Assembly: GCF_040438885.1 (NCBI RefSeq)
Contig: NZ_CP159218.1
Coordinates: 2,790,001-2,854,000 of the forward strand
Direction of reading: 5' to 3'
Source of the DNA: Nakamurella sp. A5-74
GTDB lineage: Bacteria; Actinomycetota; Actinomycetes; Mycobacteriales; Nakamurellaceae
DNA: 64,000 nt
Below the pieces are notes generated by a model. The model was not told the DNA's origin. It saw only the letters and a list, made by a program, of their open reading frames with translations, and ran no database searches. This document shows positions 3,978 to 50,072 of this stretch, piece after piece. The translations under genes and the position numbers were made by a program. Numbering within the stretch: the stretch's first letter is position 1; the number at the start of each line of letters is the position of its first letter.

Positions 3978-6311
3978 CTATCCCGCCGCGGCGTCGGGGT
4001 CGGTCTCCGCCACCGCCGCGACCACATGATCGACCAGCATCCGGGCCCGGATCCCGCTCAGCGGGCCCCGCTCCGGAGCGGTCTGGAGATACAGCACGTC
4101 GACTGCTTCGGCGCCGCGGGTCTCGACCATCGCGCGCCGGATGCTGTACCCGGCATCGGCGATCGACCGCGCTGCCGTCGCCAACAGCCCTGGGGTGTCG
4201 TGCGCACGGATCTCCAGCACGGTCGCCCCTTCCGAAGCACCCTCGACGATCGAGATCCGGGGTGCGGCGAAGGTTCCGCGCCGACGGGAACGCTGTCGTC
4301 TCAGGACGGCAGCCCTGGCCGCAGACGCATCGTTCAGCGCACCGGTCACCGACGAGCGCAGGGTGTTCGCGTCGGGCAGTTCGCCGAACTCGGGGGCCAC
4401 CGACCACACCAGCAGCGCCATCGGCTCCTCGGTGTGCACCACCGCCGACCTGATCGTGAGCCGCAGTGCGGTGAGTGCGACGGCCACATCGGCGACCAGC
4501 CCCACCCGGTCCGGCGCAACGACGGTGATCTCCGGCTCGTCGGTCGCGTCCGTTCCGATGGTGACGGACACGACGCCGGCGTCCAAGAGTGCGCGCTCCC
4601 GTGCAGTCACCGATCGTGCACCGGTGGCCGGCCAGCCCTGCAGCGCCGCGCGGGCCCGCGCGGCCAGGGTGGCGACCTGACGAGCCCGCCACTCCGACCA
4701 GGCGGCCGGACCGGCGGCCAACGCATCAGCTTCGGTGAGCGCCTCCAGCAGATCGAGGGTGCCGGCGTCACTGATCGCGTCGACGACGAGCGCGATGGTG
4801 GCCGGATCGTCCGGGTCACGGCGCGGGGCGGTCTCGGCGAGCAACAGATGATGACGGACCAGGGTGACGAGCACCTGGGTGTCGGACTCCCCCAGACCCA
4901 GGCGGCGGCAGATCGGCACCACGAGTTCGGCGCCGGCGACCGAGTGGTCACGTCCGGTTCCCTTGCCGACGTCATGGAACAGGGCCGCCAGCAGCAACAG
5001 ATCAGGACGGGTGACGCTGCGTACCAGCCGGGATGCCTCCACGGCGGTCTGCACCAGGTGACGATCGACGGTGTAGAGGTGGACCGGGTCGTGTTGCGGC
5101 ATCGACCGGAGCCGTTCCCACCCGGGGATGAGGGCGCTGACCAGACCTGCCTGGTCGAGTGACTCCCAGACCTGGACAAGCTCCGCCCCCGAGCCGAGCA
5201 GCCGCAGCAGGGCTTCCAGCGCGGCCGGCGGCCAGACGTCCGGCAGCGGCGGGCAGATCCGGGCCAGCCGGGCCAGGGTGGCGGGGGCAGCCGGGATACC
5301 GGCCTGCGCGGCCGCGGCTGCCACCCGCAGCGGCAGGACCGGGTCGTGGGCCGGGTCTGCGGCCCTGGCCAGCACCGCTTCACCGTCCTGCTCGACCACG
5401 CCCTCGGCGAGCGGCCGACGGTCCGGCCGGCCCTCGGCGACGGGTGAATCGGTGAGTGCCCGGCGGACCCGGTGCCAGGTGAGGTCGATCGCGAGATCGA
5501 CGGTGCGCCCGATCGCGGCCAGCCGGCGCAACAGGTCGTCCCGGCCCTCCAGGCCGAGCATGGTTGCGATCGCGTCCTGGTCCTGAGCCTGCAACCGGTC
5601 GGTGGCCCGCCCGGTGACCAGGTGCAGCGCGTCGCGGATCTCCAGCAGTTCCCCGCGGGCCTCCTCCAAGCCCTGGTGCGGGCAGTCGGCGACCCAGGAG
5701 GCGGCGACAGCACGCATCACGACCATGTCGCGCAGACCACCGCGGGAGTTCTTCAGATCACCGGCCGCGGCGAAAGCGAGGTCGCCGGAACGATTCCAGC
5801 GTTCCTTGCACATCTCCAGCAGCAACGGCAGGCGCTCACGGGCATCCGCCCGCCAATCGGCCAGTACCTTGCGCCGCAGAGTGGCACCGAGCTCGGCGTC
5901 ACCGGCGATGTGCCGGATGTCGAGGATTCCCAACAGGTCTGCCAGATCGGACCTGGCCACCTGACGGGCTCCGCCGACCGAACGGACCGCGTGGTCGAGT
6001 CGTACCTTGGAATCCCAGATCGGGTACCAGAGCCGCTCGGCGATCATCTCGGCATACGCCGCAGGCGTTTCCGAGGAGTGCAGCAGCACCAGATCGACAT
6101 CCGACTGCGGTGACAGCTCTCCCCTGCCGTATCCCCCGACCGCCACCAGTGCCACCCCACCGACGGTGACCCCGGCATCGACAGCCAGTTCACCCAGCCA
6201 TCCGTCGGTGAGGCGGGACAGTGCCCTGCTGCGGGCCGGTCCCGACATCGGGGACCGGCCCAACAACGCGGCGCGTAGATCGGCGTAGGAATCCCCGACG
6301 TGCGTTGGCAT
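3978..6311 (-). CDS. glnD: PII uridylyltransferase / nitrogen sensor GlnD
   Basis: GlnD is the nitrogen sensor that nucleotidylates PII under nitrogen limitation and removes the group when glutamine is high. In actinobacteria the modification is reported to be adenylylation. The 777-residue protein has the nucleotidyltransferase motif GGYGRGELSPQSDVDLVLL (residues 59 onward, with Asp pair 71/73). An HD domain follows (ALFHDVGKGTGRDHS). Two C-terminal ACT domains (APDRVGLVADVAVALTALRL and AHDTPGLLATAARSIADAGY) are expected to bind glutamine. The ATG at 6311 (MPTHVGDSYADLRAALL) fits the family's start; the longer frame to 6452 overlaps PII. It follows glnB by 61 bases and precedes ffh by 10. 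Confidence 0.95.
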   Translation of the reverse strand: MPTHVGDSYADLRAALLGRSPMSGPARSRALSRLTDGWLGELAVDAGVTVGGVALVAVGGYGRGELSPQSDVDLVLLHSSETPAAYAEMIAERLWYPIWDSKVRLDHAVRSVGGARQVARSDLADLLGILDIRHIAGDAELGATLRRKVLADWRADARERLPLLLEMCKERWNRSGDLAFAAAGDLKNSRGGLRDMVVMRAVAASWVADCPHQGLEEARGELLEIRDALHLVTGRATDRLQAQDQDAIATMLGLEGRDDLLRRLAAIGRTVDLAIDLTWHRVRRALTDSPVAEGRPDRRPLAEGVVEQDGEAVLARAADPAHDPVLPLRVAAAAAQAGIPAAPATLARLARICPPLPDVWPPAALEALLRLLGSGAELVQVWESLDQAGLVSALIPGWERLRSMPQHDPVHLYTVDRHLVQTAVEASRLVRSVTRPDLLLLAALFHDVGKGTGRDHSVAGAELVVPICRRLGLGESDTQVLVTLVRHHLLLAETAPRRDPDDPATIALVVDAISDAGTLDLLEALTEADALAAGPAAWSEWRARQVATLAARARAALQGWPATGARSVTARERALLDAGVVSVTIGTDATDEPEITVVAPDRVGLVADVAVALTALRLTIRSAVVHTEEPMALLVWSVAPEFGELPDANTLRSSVTGALNDASAARAAVLRRQRSRRRGTFAAPRISIVEGASEGATVLEIRAHDTPGLLATAARSIADAGYSIRRAMVETRGAEAVDVLYLQTAPERGPLSGIRARMLVDHVVAAVAETDPDAAAG

Positions 6312-6372
6312 CTCGGCGTCCTCGCTGTGTGACTTCAGTTCCAGTGCTTCGTACGACTGCGGGTGACCGGGG

Positions 6373-8141
<1,769 letters not shown>

Positions 8142-8241
8142 CAAGCCTCCAGGCCTGGTGTGGGTGGCGGAACGGCGCGAAGCCGTCAGCCGGTGACCTG
8201 ATCACCGTGGTCGGGAGGTGTTGCGGTGGATGAGCGTTCGT

Positions 8242-8289
8242 GTTTCCGGGTGATGAACTAGGACCCGGAATGTGTTTCGGTCAGATGAC
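8242..8289 (-). promoter_or_regulatory. Candidate GlnR-type site upstream of amt
   Basis: Read on the minus strand, two elements of the form TCAT-N6-GAAAC lie upstream of amt at 8274-8289 (GTCATCTGACCGAAAC) and 8242-8257 (TTCATCACCCGGAAAC). The actinobacterial GlnR box is built from gTnAC-N6-GaAAC units, so each half is a partial match with a perfect GAAAC. The spacing between units is 16 rather than the usual 6 bases, one extra helical turn. Position and target fit nitrogen control, but this is inference from motif likeness only. Confidence 0.35.
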
Positions 8290-31286: not shown

Positions 31287-34200
31287 TCATCGGAAGTCCC
31301 GCGACGGCATCGAGACCAGCAGGTCGATCGCGGCGATCCGGTCCGCCAGCACCGACAGCGCTCCCCCCGACGGCGCTCCTCCACCGGCGGGGCGCACCCC
31401 ACCTGAGCGTTCGACCACGCCGCGGACCAGCAGCGACGGCGCCGTCCTGGCCACCCGCCGGTAGCGCACCCACAACGCCTGCGGACAGATGATGTTGAGC
31501 AGCCCGGTCTCGTCCTCCAGATTGATGAACACCACCCCGGAGGCGGTCGCGGGACGTTGCCGATGGGTGACCATCCCGGCGACCATCACCCTGGTTCCGT
31601 GTTCGACGGCGAAGACCCCGGCGGCGCTGTACGCCCCGAGCGCGTCGAGCCGGGCCCGGGAGAACTCGGTCGGGTAGGTGACGGGTGAGATCCCGGTGGC
31701 GGCGATGTCGGCCAACGTCAGCTCCAGGTCACTCATCCCCGGCAGGGTCGGCGCCTGCAAGCCGACCACCATTCCCGGGAGTGACCCGCGGTGCTCTCCC
31801 GCTGCGGCACCGGCGGCCCAGAGCGCATGTCGCCGTACCTCACCTGGGGACAGTGGCGCCTCCGGACGGGCAGCCGTTCGTCCGGAACCGGTCCCGGACC
31901 GCTGCCGGGCCACCACGGAATCCAGCGCGCCTGCGGTGGCCAACGATTCGGCCTGTTCCGCCGTGAGGGTGACCCGGCGGGTCAGGTCGGCGATCCCGCT
32001 GAAGCCCTCCGGTGGCCTGGCGGCGACGATCCGCTGCGCCAACTCGACACCGATCCCCCGCACCTCGTCCAGACCCAACCGGACCGCGAACTCGCCGGAG
32101 GACGGCAGGTTACGCCCACGGGAGTCGGCGAGCGGGACATTGGGCGTCCGTGGGATCGCTGGGATCCCGACCCGTGGCGGGTCCTGCACGGGTTCGAGAT
32201 CGGCCGTGGCGCAGGAGGCGTTCACGTCCGGGCGGCGGATCTGCACGCCGTGCCTGCGGGCGTCGGCGACCAGGCTCTGGGGTGAGTAGAAGCCCATCGG
32301 CTGGGCCCGCAGCAGGGCGGCGCAGAACGCCGCCGGGTGGTGCAACTTCAGCCAGGACGAGTAGAAGACCAGGGCGGCGAAGCTGAGCGCATGGGATTCG
32401 GCGAAACCGAAGTTGGCGAAGGCGAGCAACCGCTCGTACACCCGGTCGGCGATCGCACCGGTGATGCCGTGTTCCTTCGCCATCCCCTGGTACAGCAGCA
32501 CTTTGAGCTTCTCCATCTTCGCCGCCGAGCGCTTGGAACCCATCGCCCTGCGCAGCTGGTCCGCCTGCCCTGCATCGAAGCCGGCCACGTCGATCGCCAG
32601 CTGCATCAGTTGCTCCTGGAACAGCGGGATGCCCAGCGTCTTCTCCAGCGAGTTGCGCATCGCCGGATGGTCGTATGTCACCTCCTCCTCGTCGTTGCGC
32701 CGACGGATGTAGGGGTGCACCGAACCACCCTGGATCGGCCCGGGACGCACCAGCGCCACCTCGACCACCAGGTCGTAGAAGCGCCGCGGTTTCAGCCGGG
32801 GCAGGGTGGCCATCTGCGCCCGCGACTCGACCTGGAACACGCCGATCGAATCGGCCCGCTGCAACATCTCGTAGACCGCCGGCTCCTCCAGATCCAGGTG
32901 TGCGAAGTCGATCTCGATCTTCTCCCGGCTCCCGATCAGCTCGTCCGCGTAGTGCAGCGCCGAGAGCATGCCGAGCCCGAGCAGGTCGAACTTCACCAGA
33001 CCGATCGCGGCGCAGTCGTCCTTGTCCCACTGCAGCACCGACCGGTTCTCCATCCGCGCCCACTCCACCGGGCAGACCTCGGCGATCGGCCGATCGCAGA
33101 TCACCATGCCGCCGGAATGGATCGACAGGTGCCGCGGGAAGTCCTGCAGCTGGGCGGCCAGATCCAGTACCGGCGGCGGGATCGGATGCTCCCCCGGGTC
33201 CGACAGTTGTTGTTCCGCCAGGGGTGTCCAGCCGTCGAGCTGCTTGGACCAGGCGTCCTGCTGACCTGGTGAGTGGCCCATCGCCTTGGCCATGTCGCGG
33301 ACGGCCATCCGCGGCCGGAAGGTGTTGACGTTGGCCACCTGCGCTGCATGATCGCGGCCGTACTTGGAATAGACGTACTGGATCACCTCCTCCCGGCGAT
33401 CGGATTCGATGTCGAGGTCGATGTCGGGTGGGCCGTCCCGTTCCGGTGCCAGGAACCTCTCGAACAGCAGCGCATAGCGGACGGCATCGACGTGGGTGAT
33501 CGCCAGGGCGTAGCAGACCGCAGAGTTGGCGGCACTTCCCCTGCCCTGGCACATGATTCCGTGGCGCCGACAGAACTTCACGATGTCGTCGATGATCAGG
33601 AAGTAGCCGGGAAAATCGAGCTGCGCGATGACCGCCAGCTCGTGCTCGATCTGCCGGTAGGCATCGGGGCTCTCCGCCGGGGTGCCGTACCGGTCGGCGG
33701 CGCCGGCCATCGTCAGGCTCCGCAGATGACTGTTCTCGTCGTCGCCCGGGGGGACGTCGAACAGCGGCAGGTTCGGTGCGACCAGGGTGAGGTCGAAGGC
33801 GTGCTGTTCGCCGATCTCGAACGCCGTCCGGACGGCGGCCGGGTACCGCGCGAACAGGGCAGCCATCTCGGCCCCCGACCGCAGATGCGCACCAGGACCC
33901 GACGGCAGGTGGGAATCGGCCTCGTCCAGGCTGCGCCGGGCCCGGACGGCTGCCATTGCCGTCCCCAGCCGGCCGGCGCCGGGGGCCGTGTAGTGCGCCC
34001 CGGTGGTGGCCACGACCGGCAGTCCGTACCGCGCGGCCAGCACTGCCAGCTGGTCGTTGTCCTCGTCGTCGGTGGCGGCGAGCGTGGTGGTCAACTCGAC
34101 CAGCACCCGGTCCCGCCCGAACAGCTCCAGCAGGCTGCGCAGCGCCGCCTCTGCCGCCTCGGGACCACCGGCGGCCAGCGCGCGCCGCACCCGACCCTTG

Positions 34201-34871
34201 CGGCAACCGGTGAGCACCGTCCAATGGCCGGACGCCTCGGCCAGGGCCGGCAGGTCGTAGAGCGGACGCCCCTTCTCACCGCCGGCCAGATGCGCCCTGC
34301 TGATCTGCCGGGACAACCGGCGGTAGCCCTCCTGGCCGCGGGCCAGCACCAGCAGGTGCTCCCCCACCGGGTCCGGGACGCCCAGCTGGGGTACCGGCAG
34401 ATCGAGTGAGAGCTCGGATCCGTAGAGCGTCTGCAGGTCGGTGCCGGCGGCGGCCTCGGCGAAGCGGACCACACCGTAGAAGCCGTCGTGGTCGGTGAGT
34501 GCCAGCCCGTTCAGCCCCAGCCGCAACGCCTCCGACACCAACTGCTCCGGGGTGGACGCCCCGTCCAGGAAGCTGAACGCCGAATGGGCGTGCAGTTCCA
34601 TGTACGGCACCCGGGTCTGCAGCAGGTCCTCATCGATGCGCACCGGTGTCCGATCGACGAAGTCCTGCCGGTGGAACGACTGCGGGCCGAGCAGGTCCGG
34701 ATGCGGACGCACCTCCTGCGGCTGACCTTCCGGCGGATGGTCCTGCGCCGGCAGCCACTCCGAGGGACGGAACGAGGTGGTGCGGATCGCTCCGACGCCG
34801 GGCCGCGGCGGCTTGCCGGAGAGCGCGCGTTCCAGGTCGGCCCAGGGCACGATCGGGTTGGAGAAGCCCAT
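31287..34871 (-). CDS. dnaE2: Error-prone DNA polymerase DnaE2
   Basis: DnaE2 is the SOS-induced C-family polymerase that copies damaged DNA together with ImuA' and ImuB. The 1194-residue protein opens MGFSNPIVPWADLERALSGK, as DnaE2 proteins do. It has a PHP domain (YMELHAHSAFSFLDGASTPE), the polymerase acid residues in DGPPDIDLDIESDRREEVIQ, FVKFDLLGLGMLSAL-type fingers sequence (LVKFDLLGLGMLSALHYA), the HhH region, and an OB fold near the end (GVFAVEHGTRVMVAGMVTHR). The ATG at 34871 overlaps the imuB stop as ATGA, so both are made from the same LexA-controlled message. A longer frame to 35255 lies inside imuB and is not used. Confidence 0.97.
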   Translation of the reverse strand: MGFSNPIVPWADLERALSGKPPRPGVGAIRTTSFRPSEWLPAQDHPPEGQPQEVRPHPDLLGPQSFHRQDFVDRTPVRIDEDLLQTRVPYMELHAHSAFSFLDGASTPEQLVSEALRLGLNGLALTDHDGFYGVVRFAEAAAGTDLQTLYGSELSLDLPVPQLGVPDPVGEHLLVLARGQEGYRRLSRQISRAHLAGGEKGRPLYDLPALAEASGHWTVLTGCRKGRVRRALAAGGPEAAEAALRSLLELFGRDRVLVELTTTLAATDDEDNDQLAVLAARYGLPVVATTGAHYTAPGAGRLGTAMAAVRARRSLDEADSHLPSGPGAHLRSGAEMAALFARYPAAVRTAFEIGEQHAFDLTLVAPNLPLFDVPPGDDENSHLRSLTMAGAADRYGTPAESPDAYRQIEHELAVIAQLDFPGYFLIIDDIVKFCRRHGIMCQGRGSAANSAVCYALAITHVDAVRYALLFERFLAPERDGPPDIDLDIESDRREEVIQYVYSKYGRDHAAQVANVNTFRPRMAVRDMAKAMGHSPGQQDAWSKQLDGWTPLAEQQLSDPGEHPIPPPVLDLAAQLQDFPRHLSIHSGGMVICDRPIAEVCPVEWARMENRSVLQWDKDDCAAIGLVKFDLLGLGMLSALHYADELIGSREKIEIDFAHLDLEEPAVYEMLQRADSIGVFQVESRAQMATLPRLKPRRFYDLVVEVALVRPGPIQGGSVHPYIRRRNDEEEVTYDHPAMRNSLEKTLGIPLFQEQLMQLAIDVAGFDAGQADQLRRAMGSKRSAAKMEKLKVLLYQGMAKEHGITGAIADRVYERLLAFANFGFAESHALSFAALVFYSSWLKLHHPAAFCAALLRAQPMGFYSPQSLVADARRHGVQIRRPDVNASCATADLEPVQDPPRVGIPAIPRTPNVPLADSRGRNLPSSGEFAVRLGLDEVRGIGVELAQRIVAARPPEGFSGIADLTRRVTLTAEQAESLATAGALDSVVARQRSGTGSGRTAARPEAPLSPGEVRRHALWAAGAAAGEHRGSLPGMVVGLQAPTLPGMSDLELTLADIAATGISPVTYPTEFSRARLDALGAYSAAGVFAVEHGTRVMVAGMVTHRQRPATASGVVFINLEDETGLLNIICPQALWVRYRRVARTAPSLLVRGVVERSGGVRPAGGGAPSGGALSVLADRIAAIDLLVSMPSRDFR

Positions 34872-36610
34872 CAGTCGTACACCCCCTCGAGCACCCAGCG
34901 GGCTGCGCCCCGGGTGGGGCCGTCGGCGGGGAGGAAACCGAGCAACAGCGCCGAACCGTCGGCGCACAGCACCTGGATCCGGGCCGCGCAACCGGCCGGT
35001 GCGGCCACCAGTTGGTGCACCGGAACCGCTGCCTCCCACCACCTCTCGTCGAACAACCAGGGTCCGGCCCAGGCCACGATCTCCCGCTCGCCGACCGCAG
35101 CGGGCTCGGCGGTCAACCGACCCCGACCGGTGAGCACCACAGGTGCGTCCCCGGCATCGGTGAGGGTCACCGGCAGTCTCGCTCCGGGCCGGCCGGCACC
35201 GGACGGGACGACATCCAGCACCACCGGTGACGGTGCCGGCAGTGCGCCCGGCCACGGGGCATCGGGGTCGCGGGCCGGGACCCGTTCGTCACCCCAGCTG
35301 ACCATCGTGACCCGGTCCCTGGCCGTCCGGCCGCCCGAGAGCACCGGGGTGAGCACCGACTGCGGCCCCAACAGTCCCTGGATGCGGGCGAAGGCCCAGC
35401 CGGCGCGATGGTCATCGTCGCCGTCGGAACCCCAGAGGCCGTACTGGATCCGGCCGGCGTCGATCGCCTCGACGGGTTCCAGGACGAGGGCGGTGATACC
35501 GCTGACGCCGTCCCCGTCCCACGGCGTCGCGTCATCAGCGGGAACGACTGCTGCGCCGGGCTTCGGGGGTCGTGCTGCCTGCACGGCGCGGGCGGTCAGC
35601 CAGCCGTCGAGCTGCCAGCGGAGCCGATCCGCGGTGGCTGCTGCGGTGAGCGGTCGGGCGGCCCGCCAGGTGCGGTGGGCAGGCGGTCCGTGGGTGAAGT
35701 GCGCGGTGATGGTGAGCCGGCTGCAGGCCAGGCCCGCAGCGGCGAGCCCGGCGTGGAACCGCTCGGCCAGCGCCCTGGCCAGGAAGGCCGCGGTGTCGAC
35801 CCGGTGCAGCGGCGGGTCGCACTCCTGCTCCAGGGTGAGGTCGGTGGGCAGCAACCGACGGGAGACACCGCGATCGCCCTGTCCGGAGGCCAGCCGATGA
35901 GCGGCCACCCCGTCCCGTCCGAAGCGGGTCGCGACCCGTTCCGCCGGGAGCGCCGCCAGGTCGCCGGCCGTCCGGATCCCCAACCGCTGCAACAGGTTCA
36001 CCAGATCGCTACGGCCAGCCGGAGCCAGCACCTCCTCCCGGGCGAGCTCCACGATCGGCAGCGCTGCACAGAACGCGCGATCACCACCGACGGGCACGAT
36101 CCGCTGTTGCCGGGCGGCCAGCACTGCCACCTCGAGTTCGTCGGCGACGCCGATCCGCGCCTCGACGTCGAGCGCCTCCACCACGTCGACGATCCGTTCG
36201 GCGGCGCGCTGCTCGTCGCCGAAGTAGCGTCGCGGACCGCGGGCCGCAACCGCGACCAGACCCGGACGCAGGATCTCGATCCCCGGTACGAGCTGCTCGA
36301 CGGCGGTGGCGATCGGTTCGAACATCCGACCGGCCACGCCGGGCAGATCACCGCCCAGATCACCGGTGAGGGCGAACACGACTAGCCCGGGGCAGCGCGA
36401 CTGTGCCTCTCGCCGCCGCATCCCGATCCGCACCCCTTCGTGGCGGGCGGCCGCGGTGCAGACCATCACCCGGTTGGCCCGGAAGACCGCCACCGGCTCG
36501 CTCGAGGGGACCCCCGCCTGCCGGGCCGCCGCCACCGCCGGCCAGTCGGGACACCACAGCACCAGGGTGCGTCGATCCGCTCCCTGCCGCGCTTGCTCCG
36601 CTGGTGTCAT
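34871..36610 (-). CDS. imuB: ImuB, Y-family polymerase-like mutasome subunit
   Basis: This 579-residue protein has the fold of Y-family polymerases (RTLVLWCPDWPAVAAARQAG at the N-terminus, RIGMRRREAQSRCPGLVVF, LGIRTAGDLAALPAERVATR in the thumb). It lacks the catalytic acidic triad: the usual DMDAFFASVE position reads LWCPDWPAV and the SIDE position reads LVAVAARGPRRYF. ImuB is known to be a non-catalytic hub that links the beta clamp, ImuA' and DnaE2. The ATG at 36610 is 12 bases from a perfect LexA box. dnaE2 follows with a four-base overlap. Confidence 0.93.
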   Translation of the reverse strand: MTPAEQARQGADRRTLVLWCPDWPAVAAARQAGVPSSEPVAVFRANRVMVCTAAARHEGVRIGMRRREAQSRCPGLVVFALTGDLGGDLPGVAGRMFEPIATAVEQLVPGIEILRPGLVAVAARGPRRYFGDEQRAAERIVDVVEALDVEARIGVADELEVAVLAARQQRIVPVGGDRAFCAALPIVELAREEVLAPAGRSDLVNLLQRLGIRTAGDLAALPAERVATRFGRDGVAAHRLASGQGDRGVSRRLLPTDLTLEQECDPPLHRVDTAAFLARALAERFHAGLAAAGLACSRLTITAHFTHGPPAHRTWRAARPLTAAATADRLRWQLDGWLTARAVQAARPPKPGAAVVPADDATPWDGDGVSGITALVLEPVEAIDAGRIQYGLWGSDGDDDHRAGWAFARIQGLLGPQSVLTPVLSGGRTARDRVTMVSWGDERVPARDPDAPWPGALPAPSPVVLDVVPSGAGRPGARLPVTLTDAGDAPVVLTGRGRLTAEPAAVGEREIVAWAGPWLFDERWWEAAVPVHQLVAAPAGCAARIQVLCADGSALLLGFLPADGPTRGAARWVLEGVYD

Positions 36611-38374: not shown

Positions 38375-38484
38375 GTTGCTGACGACCCGTGTTGCTGACG
38401 ACCCGTGTTGCTGACGACCCGTGTTGCTGACGACCCGTGTTGCTGACGACCGTGTTGCCGAAGGACCGTGTTGCCGAAGGACCG
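38375..38484. repeat. Tandem 16-bp repeat between SDR and ligase genes
   Basis: GTTGCTGACGACCCGT is repeated five times from 38375 (the fifth one base short). It is followed by two copies of a variant, GTTGCCGAAGGACCGT, to 38484. The array ends 21 bases before the ligase ATG. It would lie in the leader of the ligase message; in frame it encodes only Leu/Thr/Arg repeats. Copy number probably varies among strains. Confidence 0.9.
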
Positions 38485-41148: not shown

Positions 41149-42030
41149 TCAGCGGTCAGTGCGCTTCGGCCGCCGGGGGATGAAGAACGCGACGCGGTCC
41201 TGGTAGCCGCGGTAGCCGGGACGATCCGCCATCCGCCGTTCGGTGCGTTTCGCGCCGGTGGCGAAGATGAGCAAGTAGCTCATCAGGCCCGGCGCGGGCA
41301 CCGTCAGCAGCCCTGGCGCCGATGCCGCGGCAGCGAGGAACGCGCCGTCCCAGACGACGGAGTCGCCGAAGTAGTTCGGGTGGCGGGACCAGCCCCACAG
41401 ACCGGTGTCGAGGATGTCGCGCTCCGTGCTCCTCTTCTCGTCGCTGCTCTTGTCCTTCTCATCGCGCTCGGCCTGCTGCTGCTTGAACACCGTCTTCTGG
41501 TGGTCGGCCAACGCTTCGATCACCGCACCGGCCGCCATCACGCCAAGCCCGATCGGGAACAGCACCTTGCGACCGGACTTCGGCAACCGGCTCGCTGCAG
41601 CGAGCTGGATCGGGGCGGCGACGAGCAGCTGACTGAGCCCCTGCGCCACGAACACCTTGTTGATGACGCCGAACGTCGAAGCGCCCTCGAGGAACTCGGT
41701 GTACCGAGCGTCCTCGGAGTCGCTGCGCCGCAGTCGCTTCGTCATCTGCCAGTCCAGTCGGGCTGCCCACCCGGTGACGCCGGCGGCCAATGACCACCGC
41801 CGGACCACATCGCCCTTACCCACCAGTGCAACGGTGATGGCCACGGCCGCAAGCCCCGGACCCCAGACCCCGTCCGCGTAGTCACGCCGACCCGTCCGCA
41901 GCGCGACCGTCGCCGTGCCCGCCTGCAGCACCGTCACCACTGCCGCGGACGCTCCTGCCACCCGCCCCAGGTTCTTCCAATCGACCAACGATTTCCGCAC
42001 TGTCGTCTCCTCGTCCGCTCCGCCGTCCAT
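41149..42030 (-). CDS. DUF1295 steroid-reductase-like membrane protein
   Basis: This 293-residue protein has several hydrophobic helices and the DUF1295/5-alpha-reductase-like C-terminal signature DTGLWGWSRHPNYFGDSVVW, followed by MSYLLIFATGAKRTERRMAD and PGYRGYQDRVAFFIPRRP. These match the NADPH-binding region of steroid 5-alpha-reductase and ICMT-type enzymes, though most members are uncharacterised. A charged stretch (ADHQKTVFKQQQAERDEKDK) forms a cytosolic loop. It is convergent with the LLM gene. The 262 bases upstream (42031-42292), before the apbE stop, hold nothing recognisable. Confidence 0.8.
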   Translation of the reverse strand: MDGGADEETTVRKSLVDWKNLGRVAGASAAVVTVLQAGTATVALRTGRRDYADGVWGPGLAAVAITVALVGKGDVVRRWSLAAGVTGWAARLDWQMTKRLRRSDSEDARYTEFLEGASTFGVINKVFVAQGLSQLLVAAPIQLAAASRLPKSGRKVLFPIGLGVMAAGAVIEALADHQKTVFKQQQAERDEKDKSSDEKRSTERDILDTGLWGWSRHPNYFGDSVVWDGAFLAAAASAPGLLTVPAPGLMSYLLIFATGAKRTERRMADRPGYRGYQDRVAFFIPRRPKRTDR

Positions 42031-42292: not shown

Positions 42293-43102
42293 TCAGGCCG
42301 AGCACACATCGTCGATGTGCTGATGGGCGATCCGGTAGCCGTTCGCCAGCGCGGACGGGCACCGCGACAGCGCGGTCGGGTCCAGGAAACACACGGTCGC
42401 CCAGACATCCGCCCAGGCGAGGTTCGGGCCGGTGACGGTGATGCTGCCGCGCTGCCGGCTGGGTCCGCCGGTCCGCGGATCGTGGATGTGCGCCCCCCGC
42501 GCGGCGGTACCCGAGCTTGCGGCGGCTCCCCGCAGCATCGGAAGCGTGCCCCACAGCCGTCCGGGTCGGTCGGGGTTCTCCAACCCGATCGTCCATGGCG
42601 ACCACAGCGGTGATCGTGGCATGACACCCCTCCCGGTGTCGCACAGGATGTCGCCGCCGGCACCGATGACGAACGCGAGTTCCGGGGCGAGACGGAGGTG
42701 GTTGACCGCTCGTTCGACGGCCCACCCCTTGACGATGCCTGTGGGATCCCACCCGGACGTCCCGTCCGGACCGGTGAGTTGATCGACGAACAAGCCGCCG
42801 GTCGACCGGGTCGCGATCTCGCACAGTGTTCGCACTTCGGCGAGCCAGGGATGCGCGTCGCGAGGATCCAGAGCGCCACTCCTGATCCGCATCAGCTCAC
42901 TGTCCGACCGCCAGACACTGAACACCTCGTCGACCCGTCGCAGATAGCCGAACACGTTGCGCACCAGAGCATCCAAATTGCGGGTCGCGTCCGCGCCGTC
43001 GTCGGAGAACAGTCGCCGAACCCGCAGCGAGACCGGCAGGCCCATGACCTGCTCGACCCACACCCGTTCGACGACCTGACCTCGGTCGAGCGCGGCCGTC
43101 AC
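42293..43102 (-). CDS. apbE: FAD:protein FMN transferase (ApbE family)
   Basis: ApbE-type enzymes split FAD and attach FMN to a threonine of a target protein outside the cytoplasm or in it. The 269-residue protein shows RRVDEVFSVWRSDSELMRI, DPTGIVKGWAVERAVNHLRL (the key DPTGIVKG motif), FVIGAGGDILCDTG, and AASSGTAARGAHIHDPRTG with the catalytic HDPRTG. No signal peptide is visible at this start. The GTG at 43102 overlaps the stop of the FMN-binding gene as GTGA. Its substrate is thus almost certainly the FMN_bind protein encoded just upstream. Confidence 0.88.
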   Translation of the reverse strand: MTAALDRGQVVERVWVEQVMGLPVSLRVRRLFSDDGADATRNLDALVRNVFGYLRRVDEVFSVWRSDSELMRIRSGALDPRDAHPWLAEVRTLCEIATRSTGGLFVDQLTGPDGTSGWDPTGIVKGWAVERAVNHLRLAPELAFVIGAGGDILCDTGRGVMPRSPLWSPWTIGLENPDRPGRLWGTLPMLRGAAASSGTAARGAHIHDPRTGGPSRQRGSITVTGPNLAWADVWATVCFLDPTALSRCPSALANGYRIAHQHIDDVCSA

Positions 43103-43642
43103 AGGTTCGCCTGGTCGACGGCTGATTGCAAGCTCTGCAGATACCCGTCGGAGGTGTAGGTGGCGCCGCCGACCATGCTGATGTTCGCGCTCTGCGCGTC
43201 GACCGTTTCCTGGTTGAGCGTGGGGATCGCGTAGTCGTTGATCTCCTGGTCGCGGGTGGTCGTTGTACGGGTACTCCAGGGCGGTGGCCGCGGTGATCTT
43301 GCCGTCCTGCACCGTGATCTGGACCTGGACCGGCCCGTAGCGGGTGTCTGCGGCAGCACCGGTGAACGTTCCGGAGGCCGCAGCCGCCTCGGCGGTGGGA
43401 GAACCGGTCGATGGAGTGCTCGTCGCCGGGACTGTTCCGTCCGCGTCGGCGGTGACCGTCGCGGTGACGGTGGTCGTCGAGCCGGCGGTGGTGGTCGAGC
43501 CGGCTGTCGACGGACGCGCCGCGGCCGGGGTGCTGATGGATGGCGGGGTCGCAGCCGCCTCGGTGTTCGTGGAGGTGTGGTAGCTGAACAACAGGATCAG
43601 GACGGTCGCGGTACTGAGCAACCACCAGGTGATCTTCTTCAT
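43099..43642 (-). pseudogene. Membrane-anchored FMN-binding (flavinylated) protein with a frameshift
   Basis: The N-terminus MKKITWWLLSTATVLILLFS is a signal anchor. A Thr/Ala-rich stalk (residues 30-90) leads into an FMN_bind domain: RYGPVQVQITVQDGKITAAT, ALEYPYN. The frame then shifts near 43260-43275 and continues DQEINDYAIPTLNQETVDAQ, SANISMVGGATYTSDGYLQS, LQSAVDQANL. The GATYTS motif is where ApbE attaches FMN. Both halves are well conserved, so the break could be a real mutation, a sequencing slip or a programmed shift. Without shifting, the first frame runs on into the apbE frame with no stop. Function: extracytoplasmic electron carrier, likely served by the adjacent membrane reductase. 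Confidence 0.75.
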
Positions 43643-43711
43643 CGTCGGTCCTTCTGGCTGGTGGGACTGTGGCTGGTGGTGCTGTGACCGGAGGAGCTGG
43701 CGCGGCGTCGA

Positions 43712-45196
43712 TCAGTAGCCGAACTGCTCGTCGTGCACACGGTCGGGCGGAACTCCGGCCGCTCGCGCTGCCCGGTGAACGGCCTGCATCCAGGCGGGAG
43801 CCCCGCAGAGATACACCTCACGTTCCGCGACATCGGGACACAGGTGCAGCAGCGCTTGGACGTCGGTGAGATGCGCAGCCGGCTGCGGTAGCCAGCTGGC
43901 ACGGCCGTCGATGCGTCGGCCGGCGACCCGCAGGTAGTCCGCTCCGGCGCGGCGGGCGACCTCAGCCGTCTCCGCCCCGAGCGCTGCCTCGGCATCGGAG
44001 CGGACGCGGTGCACGACCATCACGTCACCCGGTTGCTGCTCGAGGCCCTGCAGCAGGGACAGCATCGGGGCGATGCCGATGCCGGATCCCATCAACAGCA
44101 CCTTGCGCTGGGTGCGCACACCCGGGTGCATACGTCCGTACGGCCCCTCGATGAGGACCCTGGTGCCGGGACGCAGGTGCGTCAGGCGAGCGGTGCCCTC
44201 CCCCACGATCGCAGCGGTGAACCGCAGGGACCGCCCGTCGGGTGCCGCCGAGAGGGAGAACGGGTTCGCGCGGGACCAGCCGCGCCGGGTCAGGAAACGC
44301 CACTGGAAGAACTGCCCCGGTTGCACCGGCAGCGCGGCGATCCCGGGCCCGGAGACCGTCACGGACACCGCGCCTGGGCCCTCCGGGCGGACGTCCACGA
44401 CACGCACACCTGCACGCAGGGAACGGACGAGAGGCACAACGATCCGCCACACGATGACGGGGCCGGCGCAGACCGCGTACAACGACCACCAGAACACCGT
44501 CGCAACGCGTGAGGCGAGGAAATCATTGCCGGTCCAGAGTTGGTGCGGCAGCGCCAGTCCTACGCCCACATACGCGTACAGGTGCAGCAGGTGCCACGAC
44601 TCGTACTTCAGCTTCCGTCGAGCCCACCGGGCGGAGGTGGCAACGACCATCAACAGGGCGATCGTCCCGGCGACGGCCAGCAGGATTCCTGGGTAGTTCA
44701 CGACGAGGTCGACGATCGTTCCCCACAGCCCGAGCGGCCCGGTGGCTGCGTAGCCGAGGGTGACCAGGACGATGTGGACCATCATCAAGGTGAATGAGGA
44801 GATGCCGATCAGTCGATGCGCCATGGCCAGTCGGTCCTGACCCCAGGACTGCTCCACGATGGGGACCCTGGCCATCATGAACACCTGGGCCAGCAGAAGT
44901 GCTGACGCGAGCAGGCCGCTGAGGCACGCGATCGAGGTCAGCGCGGAGCCGAGCGATCCGGTCAGATCCGTGATCGCGGCGTTGCTGAGCCAGAGCGCAG
45001 TCACTGCGACGAGAACCAACCACAGCGATCCTGCGGTGAGGTCGCGGAACCAGGAGTGACCGGAGCACCGACGACGGCCGCGCATCACCGGCGACCGATC
45101 GTCGTACCCGGCGCGCCCGGTGCACTCCACGATTGGCATCTGGGAATTCGGTCCGGGCGACGTCGACCGGTTCTCGGTCACGACGGAAGTTGTCAT
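43712..45196 (-). CDS. Ferric-reductase-like membrane flavoprotein (ferredoxin reductase family)
   Basis: This 494-residue protein has six or so membrane helices with candidate haem-ligand histidines (MAHRLIGISSFTLMMVHIVL and YESWHLLHLYAYVGVGLALP with HQLW). A cytosolic reductase module follows: FAD-binding SRANPFSLSA, NAD(P)-binding KVLLMGSGIGIAPMLSLLQG, and the C-terminal DVAEREVYLCGAPAWMQAVH. It should move electrons from NAD(P)H across the membrane. With the FMN-binding protein and ApbE directly downstream, it forms a flavin-based transmembrane electron-transfer unit. The ATG at 45196 (MTTSVVTENRST) is chosen; the longer start at 45268 is less convincing. Confidence 0.85.
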   Translation of the reverse strand: MTTSVVTENRSTSPGPNSQMPIVECTGRAGYDDRSPVMRGRRRCSGHSWFRDLTAGSLWLVLVAVTALWLSNAAITDLTGSLGSALTSIACLSGLLASALLLAQVFMMARVPIVEQSWGQDRLAMAHRLIGISSFTLMMVHIVLVTLGYAATGPLGLWGTIVDLVVNYPGILLAVAGTIALLMVVATSARWARRKLKYESWHLLHLYAYVGVGLALPHQLWTGNDFLASRVATVFWWSLYAVCAGPVIVWRIVVPLVRSLRAGVRVVDVRPEGPGAVSVTVSGPGIAALPVQPGQFFQWRFLTRRGWSRANPFSLSAAPDGRSLRFTAAIVGEGTARLTHLRPGTRVLIEGPYGRMHPGVRTQRKVLLMGSGIGIAPMLSLLQGLEQQPGDVMVVHRVRSDAEAALGAETAEVARRAGADYLRVAGRRIDGRASWLPQPAAHLTDVQALLHLCPDVAEREVYLCGAPAWMQAVHRAARAAGVPPDRVHDEQFGY

Positions 45197-45392: not shown

Positions 45393-46050
45393 TCAGAATG
45401 CGAACACTTCCTCGTGCAGCTGACGAGCCGGCAGCCCCAGCTGCTGCAGTGAGCTGCGCACCGCACGGGCCAACGGCGGTGATGCGCACAGATACACATC
45501 GCTCTGCGCGAGTTCAGGAACGAGGCGGTGCAGGTCCGCCGGCGTGATCTGGTTGGCCGGATGGGACGAGGGGCCGATCAGCCACACGATGCGGGCGCCG
45601 CGGCGCCGTGCAATGGCTTCCAGCTCGTCGTGGAACACGACCTCCTGCGGGGCAGACACCCTGTTCAGCAGCGTGAGTGGTCCCGGAACCTCGATCGTCT
45701 CGAAAAGTGCGCGCATCGGGGTGATCCCGACGCCACCGGCAATGAGCACCACCGAACTACGGCGCCGACGGTGAGCTGTCATCGACCCGGATGGTCCCTC
45801 AGCGAACACCAGCGTGCCCGGTCTCACGGCCTGCACCCGGCTGCTGCCATCGCCCAGGGCCTTGACGGTGATGCGCATCCGATCACTGCGGCGTGGCGCC
45901 GACAAGGAGAACGGGTGGGCACTGCGCCACAGCCGGCCGTCGACGAAGCGCCATCGGAAGAACTGACCCGACTCGCCGCCGAGTTCATCCAGGTGTCTGC
46001 CGCACCTGACGATGCTGATCGCCTCGACCCGGAGCCTACGAACAGGACCG
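45393..46050 (-). pseudogene. Truncated paralogue of the ferric-reductase-like protein
   Basis: The minus strand carries RLRVEAISIVRCGRHLDELG, GESGQFFRWRFVDGRLWRSA, HPFSLSAPRR (FAD site), VVLIAGGVGITPMRALFETI (nucleotide site) and SDVYLCASPPLARAVRSSLQ, ending LHEEVFAF. This is the reductase half of a protein paralogous to the 43712-45196 gene. The membrane domain is missing or in broken frames; a hydrophobic LRLPGLIAATVGTVLFVG remains in another frame near 46070. The nucleotide-binding half may still be translated from an internal start. The gap to the GH3 gene (46051-46308) shows nothing else. Confidence 0.65.
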
Positions 46051-46308
46051 TGCCGACGGTGGCAGCGATCAAGCCCGGCAACCGGAGTACCTCAGCCAGA
46101 GCGGTGAACGGACCCCACCCCGCGGGACGCGGCCCACGACTGGACAGCGGCACCACGCGGAAGCCGCGCGAACCGGCCCGGCGTACTGGTGGAGCTCGTC
46201 GGCTCACAGAAGTCGTCGCCAGTGAGCGATTCTCAGCTTCCGAGGCGGAGAAACGTTCACTGGAGACGGGTTCTGTGAGCTGAGACGACGGGGACCTTGC
46301 GGATCAGC

Positions 46309-48436: not shown

Positions 48437-49426
48437 TCACGCCGGGAGCGCTGCCCCCTGCGCCACGATTTCCGCCTGCTGGCCCGGGCCACCGACGGTG
48501 AACGGTCGACCTGGCAGCATCGCCACCGTGCCGTCGCGTCGTCCGGACAGCCGCAGCACACCACTGCGCGCGCGGCCGAACCGTCTGCCCTCGACCGTGA
48601 TGGCCAGGTCCCGATCGATCAGCCGTCCGTGCCCGTTGCCCAACCCGCTCCAGCGGGACGCCTGCGCGGTGATCACCAGATCGGCACCCGGCCAATCGCC
48701 GGCCACCAACAACACCGCTCCGCTCGTGCGGAGCCGTCCCCGCAGGACCCGCACCCGCGCGGGTGGGACGGCAGCTCGGGGAGCCCCGGCGACGATCACC
48801 TCGACACCGTCGGCGAGCACCGAGATCACCTGCAGCGCATCGTCTCCCGGGTCGGGCACCACCGCCAATCGGTCCAGCGAGACCCCCAGTTCGGCGGCCG
48901 CGAGCAGGCCGAGCTCCGGGACACCCACCAGGGCCGCCCAGCGAGCTCCGCCGGCGACCACTGCGCCGTCACCGCCCTGGATCGCTGCCACCAACGACAG
49001 CAACAGGCTGGAGCCTCCCCCACCCACCCCGCCGGAGCGGATCCCGACCACCCCACCGCGCGGCACACCGCCGTCGGGGAGCAGCGCGCCGAGCGGACCA
49101 CTCACCGGAAGGATCGTCGACCCGACCCAGGAGGCGCGTCCGACGGTCCGGCCGGGCTCGGCGCCCACCCGCCCGAGCTCCGCAGTCACCAGCCCGAGTT
49201 CGGCACCCCCAGGACGCCCTGCATCCCCGGCAGGGGTGTCGGTCCGCTGCGGGAGGATGTCGTCCGTCGCGGTCCGCGCGCGATGCACGGCGGCCCCGGC
49301 CGCACCCCAGCCGAGGGACACGCCAGGATGAGCGGTCTCCAGCGAACGACGCAGACCGGCGATCACCTCGTCACGCGTCAGGCCCGGGGTCACCGCAGCG
49401 CGAACCTCGGCACGTGAATCGAACAT
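48437..49426 (-). CDS. imuA': ImuA'-like mutasome protein
   Basis: This 329-residue protein resembles the RecA-like ImuA'/SulA-related partner of ImuB and DnaE2 in actinobacteria. Features include a degenerate nucleotide loop RSGGVGGGGSSLLLSLVAAI near residue 130, WAALVGVPELGLLAAAELGV, SLDRLAVVPDPGDDALQVIS and a C-terminal beta-rich end (GTVAMLPGRPFTVGGPGQQA). The Walker A lysine is absent, as expected for a non-ATPase adaptor. The ATG at 49426 lies inside a perfect LexA box, so translation may be leaderless or begin further in. It is 10 bases after hisH on the same strand, and far from imuB-dnaE2. Confidence 0.75.
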   Translation of the reverse strand: MFDSRAEVRAAVTPGLTRDEVIAGLRRSLETAHPGVSLGWGAAGAAVHRARTATDDILPQRTDTPAGDAGRPGGAELGLVTAELGRVGAEPGRTVGRASWVGSTILPVSGPLGALLPDGGVPRGGVVGIRSGGVGGGGSSLLLSLVAAIQGGDGAVVAGGARWAALVGVPELGLLAAAELGVSLDRLAVVPDPGDDALQVISVLADGVEVIVAGAPRAAVPPARVRVLRGRLRTSGAVLLVAGDWPGADLVITAQASRWSGLGNGHGRLIDRDLAITVEGRRFGRARSGVLRLSGRRDGTVAMLPGRPFTVGGPGQQAEIVAQGAALPA

Positions 49427-49434
49427 GTGTTCGA
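49419..49434 (-). promoter_or_regulatory. LexA (SOS) box overlapping the imuA' start
   Basis: TCGAACATGTGTTCGA has perfect TCGAAC/GTTCGA arms, as at 36623. The central ATG on the minus strand is the predicted imuA' start codon, an unusual overlap. The box ends three bases before the hisH stop. Confidence 0.9.
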
Positions 49435-49436
49435 TA

Positions 49437-50072
49437 CTAGAGAGAACGCACCCATCTGGACAAGAGCTCGGCGCCCGCATCACCGGACTTCTCCGGGTGG
49501 AACTGGGTGGCCACCAGCGGGCCGTTCTCGACCGCAGCGACGAAGGCGTCGCCGCCGTGCTCCGACCAGCTGACGGCCGGCTCCGGGAACGGCGGCGTCA
49601 CCTCGAGCTCCCAGCGCCGCGCGGCGTAGGAGTGCACGAAGTAGTAACGGGTATCCGGGTCGATCCCGGCGAACAGCGTCGAGCCGGTGCCGGGCGTGAC
49701 GGTGTTCCAACCCATGTGCGGAACCACAGACGCCTGCAGTCGCTCCACGGTGCCCGGCCACTCGCCGGCGCCCTCGGTCTGCACGCCGTGCTCGACGCCG
49801 TGTTCGAACAGGATCTGCATCCCCACACAGATGCCCAGTACCGGTCGGGATCCGGCGAGACGTCGGCCGATGATCCGCTCACCCCGCACCTGCAGCAGGC
49901 CGGCCATGCACGCCGCGTAGGCGCCGACGCCCGGTACCACCAGGCCGTCAGCCTGCAGAGCCGCGTCGAAGTTGCCGGTCACCTCGACCTCCGCGCCAGT
50001 GCGCTGCAATGCCCGGCGGGCAGAGGCGAGGTTGCCGGAACCGTAGTCGAGCACGACCACGCTAGGGGTCAC
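49437..50072 (-). CDS. hisH: Imidazole glycerol phosphate synthase, glutaminase subunit HisH
   Basis: HisH supplies ammonia from glutamine to HisF in histidine synthesis. The 211-residue class I amidotransferase has [32 protein letters not shown], the nucleophile loop [15 protein letters not shown] and the catalytic His-Glu in [14 protein letters not shown]. The GTG at 50072 overlaps the hisB stop (GTGA). hisA and hisF, its usual followers, are not downstream here; imuA' is. Confidence 0.95.

Follow-up and report, generated by a model that had tools for sequence, protein, structure and literature searches.

MsrQ-like flavinylation clusters are the closest described relatives of the locus studied here. 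According to the sections of Meheust et al. (2021; PMC8238504) consulted here, they are broadly conserved in Actinobacteria, with 1797 clusters in 1468 genomes, and 1437 MsrQ-like clusters have a NAD-binding domain. The same sections describe a filter for a secreted or lipidated component and propose iron reduction for the MsrQ-like clusters with a VIT1 transporter. The window, i.e. the whole 64,000-nucleotide stretch analysed, comes from the 4.75 Mb, single-contig genome of Nakamurella sp. A5-74. Its flavin-transfer locus shares with those clusters a PF01794 membrane protein, which in the clusters often has a C-terminal PF00175 domain, an FMN-binding gene and apbE. Our main reading, to which we give a probability of about 0.58, is that the window holds a second copy, in the course of decay, of an actinobacterial MsrQ-like flavinylation module. 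The locus comprises the following features.

45393..46174, reverse strand: RED2, remnant of a second reductase (homology to the reductase of locus L032 in genome G014; tblastn)
43712..45196, reverse strand: RED, membrane reductase with Ferric_reduct (PF01794) and a C-terminal NAD-binding domain (PF00175) (Pfam)
43099..43642, reverse strand: FMN-carrier gene, broken (tblastn, GC3, HMM)
42293..43102, reverse strand: apbE, predicted FAD:protein FMN transferase (Pfam PF02424)
41149..42030, reverse strand: DUF1295 membrane protein, the neighbour on the downstream side (Pfam PF06966, 153.9 bits)

The carrier stop and the GTG start of apbE share the letters GTGA, a 4-nt overlap that is present as first described. 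In an intact module, cytosolic NAD(P)H would reduce FAD in the C-terminal part of the reductase, and electrons would traverse the membrane via two b-haems held by four conserved histidines and pass to the FMN domain of a stalked, membrane-anchored carrier outside. ApbE would supply this FMN, transferring it from FAD to the threonine of the SGATYT motif of the carrier. The direction of electron flow is likewise a prediction, as is the outside acceptor, for which ferric iron is a candidate, as published for some related clusters. No VIT1 domain was found by Pfam among the window neighbours scanned. The route from NAD(P)H through the reductase to covalent FMN outside, as originally predicted, fits the module type and equals the MsrQ-like model in the consulted sections of PMC8238504, but is not supported for this copy, which as sequenced encodes no intact carrier.

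Conservation of the three-gene order

To place the locus, strong matches to RED were collected in the genus outside the window. They occur at 13 loci, and reductase, carrier and ApbE stand side by side at 12 of them, namely at a paralogue in the same genome (L027) and at 11 loci in nine other genomes. The thirteenth locus (L029), also in this genome, has the strong reductase match without carrier and ApbE. We also compared 77 named actinobacterial loci, i.e. the best 80 of at least 335 by carrier similarity, not a random sample, minus three duplicates (L041, L042 and L053). A reductase was adjacent in 76, an ApbE in 69, and all three genes were together in 69. ApbE was counted as adjacent when its domain began no more than 150 bases before or 400 bases past the carrier stop; for the reductase, its end had to lie at most about 1.3 kb ahead of the point where the carrier domain ends. 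L029 and L028 had also been left out of the count, and restoring L029 gives the genus figure of 12/13; the RED2 homologue of L032 was counted together with its trio. The three-gene order, which the original prediction expected to recur across genomes, is therefore conserved far beyond chance.

Several arrangements depart from the plain trio. Among the named loci (best 80 of at least 335), eight lack an adjacent ApbE: L057 lies on a 3.8-kb contig, and L048, L051, L065, L078, L100 and L117 are among those with reductase and carrier but no adjacent apbE. Sixteen Streptomyces loci among the same best 80 of at least 335 have two reductase-carrier pairs in tandem followed by one apbE (L050, L054, L055, L058, L060, L063, L066, L070, L071, L076, L087, L088, L093, L095, L105 and L108). 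The ApbE adjoining L040 scores 51 bits and belongs to a divergent type. The locus labelled 'Acidobacteria bacterium UBA2994' cannot be told from that of Microbacterium sp. K24 by its HMM scores and N-termini (L052, L053) and is probably a misassigned contig.

The frame break in the FMN carrier

The anchor and first half of the window carrier are in the frame of the ATG at 43642, with MKKITWWLLSTATVLILLFSYHTS as the N-terminal anchor sequence, and the half with GGATYTS is in another frame, the switch lying near 43255. Using the intact paralogue's carrier as tblastn query, residues 1-146 were found at 43642-43268 and residues 151-201 at 43254-43102, in different frames, and the carrier HMM pieces 1-142 and 142-194 fall in different ORFs. 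The break site has 4 bases where homologues have one codon. We also computed GC at third codon positions (GC3) in 150-base windows. In the first frame it is 0.78-0.92 for the windows that begin between 43702 and 43387, drops to 0.38 at 43252-43103 (another frame has 0.92 there), and is 0.74-0.92 inside apbE, in the first frame again. Across the low-complexity linker (43567-43328) the third frame is also high, at 0.78-0.88, and GC3 is little informative there. Codon bias is thus kept on either side of a single break. The second half alone scores 21.5 bits with Pfam FMN_bind against a cut-off of 22, and six-frame genome searches with PF04205 (FMN_bind) gave no carrier match at the window locus.

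The prediction of a GATYTS motif in a signal-anchored protein therefore stands for its parts, as anchor and GGATYTS are both there, but not for the whole, as they lie in different frames and do not form one protein. The window motif is GGATYT, with glycine at a position that is Ser or Thr in all 106 related carriers (named loci being the best 80 of at least 335); in these, [ST]GAT.[TS] occurs 102 times, and SGGT and SGAS twice each. Lacking an intact gene for it, the window copy, as sequenced, is unable to make an anchored FMN carrier and has probably lost its function.

The genes on both sides look sound. RED scores 66.1 bits with PF01794 and 24.4 bits with PF00175 (cut-off 22), in agreement with the haem/FAD/NAD(P) membrane reductase predicted directly upstream, and its ORF has a possible start up to 45268. 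MsrQ itself, the methionine sulfoxide reductase subunit, was rejected as an identity for RED, which reaches 35.4 bits against a threshold of 130 for NCBIfam NF003831 and is only a relative. The window ApbE carries DPTGIVKG and HDPRTG, as had been noticed, and scores 82.9 bits with PF02424 against a curated cut-off of 25.6, making it a predicted FMN transferase; NCBIfam gave no match for it or for the intact carrier. Five histidines are kept in 95% or more of 103 reductases (RED among them; named loci from the best 80 of at least 335), and RED has all five, four of them in the membrane region or at its edge. Judged by sequence, the conserved histidine pairs of the membrane region probably bind haem. 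At columns conserved at 95% or more in this comparison (named loci, best 80 of at least 335), RED deviates at 3 of 55 and the window ApbE at 1 of 28, and no decay was found in either gene by this measure. With RED and ApbE undecayed and codon bias continuing beyond the break, the break is either very recent or not real.

Remnant reductase, intact paralogue and rival readings

RED2 lies 2.1 kb upstream of the carrier break. Its FAD/NAD part is retained, and its membrane part is mostly deleted and partly in another frame: tblastn with the 434-residue G014 homologue matches residues 226-434, with a further weak match in another frame to residues 81-151 (34%, E 2e-5). RED2 is 66% identical over 209 aa to this intact reductase of L032, its closest homologue among the loci fetched, which is whole there and located upstream of a reductase-carrier-apbE trio. 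In L032, an apparent regulator-kinase pair (by sequence reading) sits between the RED2 homologue and RED, whereas the window is without such a pair.

Profile searches of the window's own genome found three ApbE genes and a single PF04205 carrier, the one belonging to the intact trio at 2.41 Mb. This trio (L027) lies 0.42 Mb from the window locus, with the reductase at locus positions 5346-6830, the carrier at 6850-7461 and apbE at 7458-8249. It shares with the window the gene order, the 4-nt carrier/apbE overlap and a reductase that is 44% identical, but its carrier is intact and it is preceded by genes that look, on reading the sequence, like a response regulator and a histidine kinase. No second reductase was found in the 14-kb L027 stretch. 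The third ApbE of the genome (L028, G000:C1:4040000-4052000) is leaderless and near a distantly related reductase, and no PF04205 carrier was detected at that locus. Since the genome has an intact trio elsewhere and the carrier is broken here, the window locus looks like a decaying second copy, and the intact paralogous trio most likely does the module's job. The original prediction had overlooked the frame break, the decayed RED2, the intact paralogue and the absence of an export signal on ApbE.

The genus context suggests how the locus arrived. imuB is present in 17/17 genus genomes. We compared imuB with 1.5-kb flanks in the 16 genomes other than this one: a GH3 gene lies 0.9 kb away in two (G008 and G001, which have the best ImuB scores of the genus genomes), an imuA-like match lies 0.2-0.7 kb from imuB in four (G006, G011, G014 and G016), and neither is seen in ten. 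G008 and G001 gave no FMN_bind match and no strong reductase match (none in G001; one at E 9e-4 in G008). In the window, a 9.7-kb block with the trio separates imuA, named by sequence reading and without a Pfam match, and the GH3 gene from imuB. As GH3 is close to imuB in G008 and G001 without FMN_bind or a strong reductase, the trio block looks like a lineage-specific insert, and its gain in this lineage would be the simplest reading. The polymerase III alpha-like/imuB pair (31287-36610) is about 12 kb from the imuA-like gene (48437-49483), with the GH3 gene and the trio block between them. Two repeats were also seen in the window: about six copies of a 16-base tandem repeat at 38375-38474, between the SDR gene and the AMP-ligase ORF and overlapping the start of the latter, and a 103-base direct repeat at 2142-2362 in two copies matching at 95%.

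The break could instead be an assembly or sequencing error, in which case the window would encode a functional second trio and RED2 alone would be a pseudogene. We regard this as a serious competitor, though clearly below even odds. It agrees with the conserved residues retained in RED and ApbE and with the codon bias maintained on both sides of one break. Moreover, two of 81 adjacent ApbE genes (L064 and L116; named loci from the best 80 of at least 335) are split, with pieces 362 and 445 bases apart in different frames, so breaks of such a kind occur, real or not. Against it stands the motif glycine in place of the Ser/Thr of 106/106 relatives (best 80 of at least 335), and the decay of RED2 exceeds what a single error could explain. 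In the other neighbouring genes scanned (ImuB, DNA polymerase III alpha-like, SDR, AMP-ligase, luciferase-like, GH3 and DUF1295), the Pfam domains each lie in one uninterrupted frame. The decay of RED2 could, on the other hand, be independent, next to a functional trio.

Two further readings take the break as real and the locus as productive. The anchor frame is stop-free through the carrier into apbE, and the resulting 449-aa ORF might encode a fusion of the anchor and half the carrier to ApbE, which would export ApbE and hold it on the membrane. Similar long frames run from carrier to apbE in the intact loci L031, L033, L037 and L038, GC3 marks 43252-43103 as coding in the other frame, and in the 106 related carriers (best 80 of at least 335) the anchor leads in frame to the FMN domain rather than to ApbE, all of which makes such a product very improbable. 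Programmed frameshifting at the break could also yield a carrier, in line with the codon bias of both halves, yet 106/106 related carriers (named loci, best 80 of at least 335) keep anchor and carrier in a single frame and no slippery site was recognised at the break; we find this hardly credible. A decaying second copy is thus the reading we prefer. By itself the window locus adds little, being a broken copy of a module whose kind is already known.

Leaderless ApbE and the site of flavin attachment

The ApbE proteins of these trios raise the question of where FMN is attached. Leaders were scored by the peak hydropathy over 17 residues close to any start codon, a crude measure, as it keeps the highest value among many starts; for ApbE, the starts considered began 120 bases ahead of the carrier stop. 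All 106 carriers (named loci, best 80 of at least 335) have an anchor, with scores of at least 1.71 and a median of 2.21. No clear hydrophobic leader was found at the ApbE N-terminus in 81/81 carrier-ApbE pairs (named loci, best 80 of at least 335), with a maximum of 1.64 and a median of 0.83. In the two ApbEs at 1.63-1.64, the peak reads as the first strand of the domain itself, and 12 near-full-length genus ApbE matches (one beside L040) score at most 1.29. As controls, ApbE of E. coli K-12 and six of its neighbours were scored: ApbE, OmpC, NapA and Mqo reach 1.97, 2.14, 1.73 and 1.65, and AlkB, Ada and RcsB 0.60-1.07. The margin is thin, with Mqo (1.65) and NapA (1.73) set against the ApbE maximum of 1.64 in the pairs. 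As a further control we took eight plasmid ApbEs from the 30 matches listed of 538 records, and three have a leader (L179, L186 and L185). That of L185, whose annotated start is 78 codons upstream of the matched domain, was missed, so the any-start rule can overlook distant leaders. In the window, the hydropathy measure, used in place of a signal-peptide predictor, shows ApbE without its own leader and the anchor on the broken carrier.

We therefore propose tentatively, at a little short of even odds, that in actinobacterial MsrQ-like systems a leaderless ApbE, often in translational overlap, flavinylates the carrier in the cytosol before its passage through Sec. Tat was rejected as a general route of carrier export, as Arg-Arg precedes the core in 69/106 carriers and KR, KK, RK or no basic pair in 37/106 (named loci, best 80 of at least 335). 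An EetB-type FAD exporter (PF07456) was found in 0/17 genus genomes. The consulted part of PMC9973259, however, places eetB, the gene of an FAD-export subunit, beside some MsrQ-like systems, which counts against cytosolic flavinylation. If the proposal is true, an FAD exporter would no longer be needed and the scheme would differ from that of a periplasmic ApbE; a chain already bearing flavin would have to go through Sec, and the question of how FAD reaches an outside ApbE would fall away. The pattern in 81/81 pairs (best 80 of at least 335) could thus matter more than the window locus.

Known systems offer partial parallels. According to the consulted part of PMC12052999, the majority of ApbEs are secreted and some are cytosolic, e.g. 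that for a soluble fumarate reductase in Klebsiella. Truncated NqrC was flavinylated by a truncated ApbE expressed in the cytosol, so the reaction is possible there. In the text consulted, we met no description of the ApbEs of actinobacterial MsrQ-like systems as cytosolic. An exported carrier with a leaderless ApbE differs from the known cytosolic cases but may not be unique. Three PepSY-linked apbE genes on alphaproteobacterial plasmids (L181, L183 and L184) resemble the trio in that ApbE is leaderless and its gene overlaps that of an upstream membrane protein, although this protein belongs to a different family. Leaderless ApbE beside a membrane protein is thus not confined to Actinobacteria, which weakens the novelty of the pattern. 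As for the window copy, a PF01794 membrane protein gene adjoins the apbE/FMN-binding genes and RED has the C-terminal NAD-binding domain that is usual, though not obligatory, in MsrQ-like systems; an intact anchored FMN-binding carrier is lacking in the window and present in the paralogue L027. We accordingly file the window copy as a broken member of the MsrQ-like flavinylation systems, which differs from the clusters described in the consulted sections of PMC8238504 by its broken carrier and its extra, decayed reductase.
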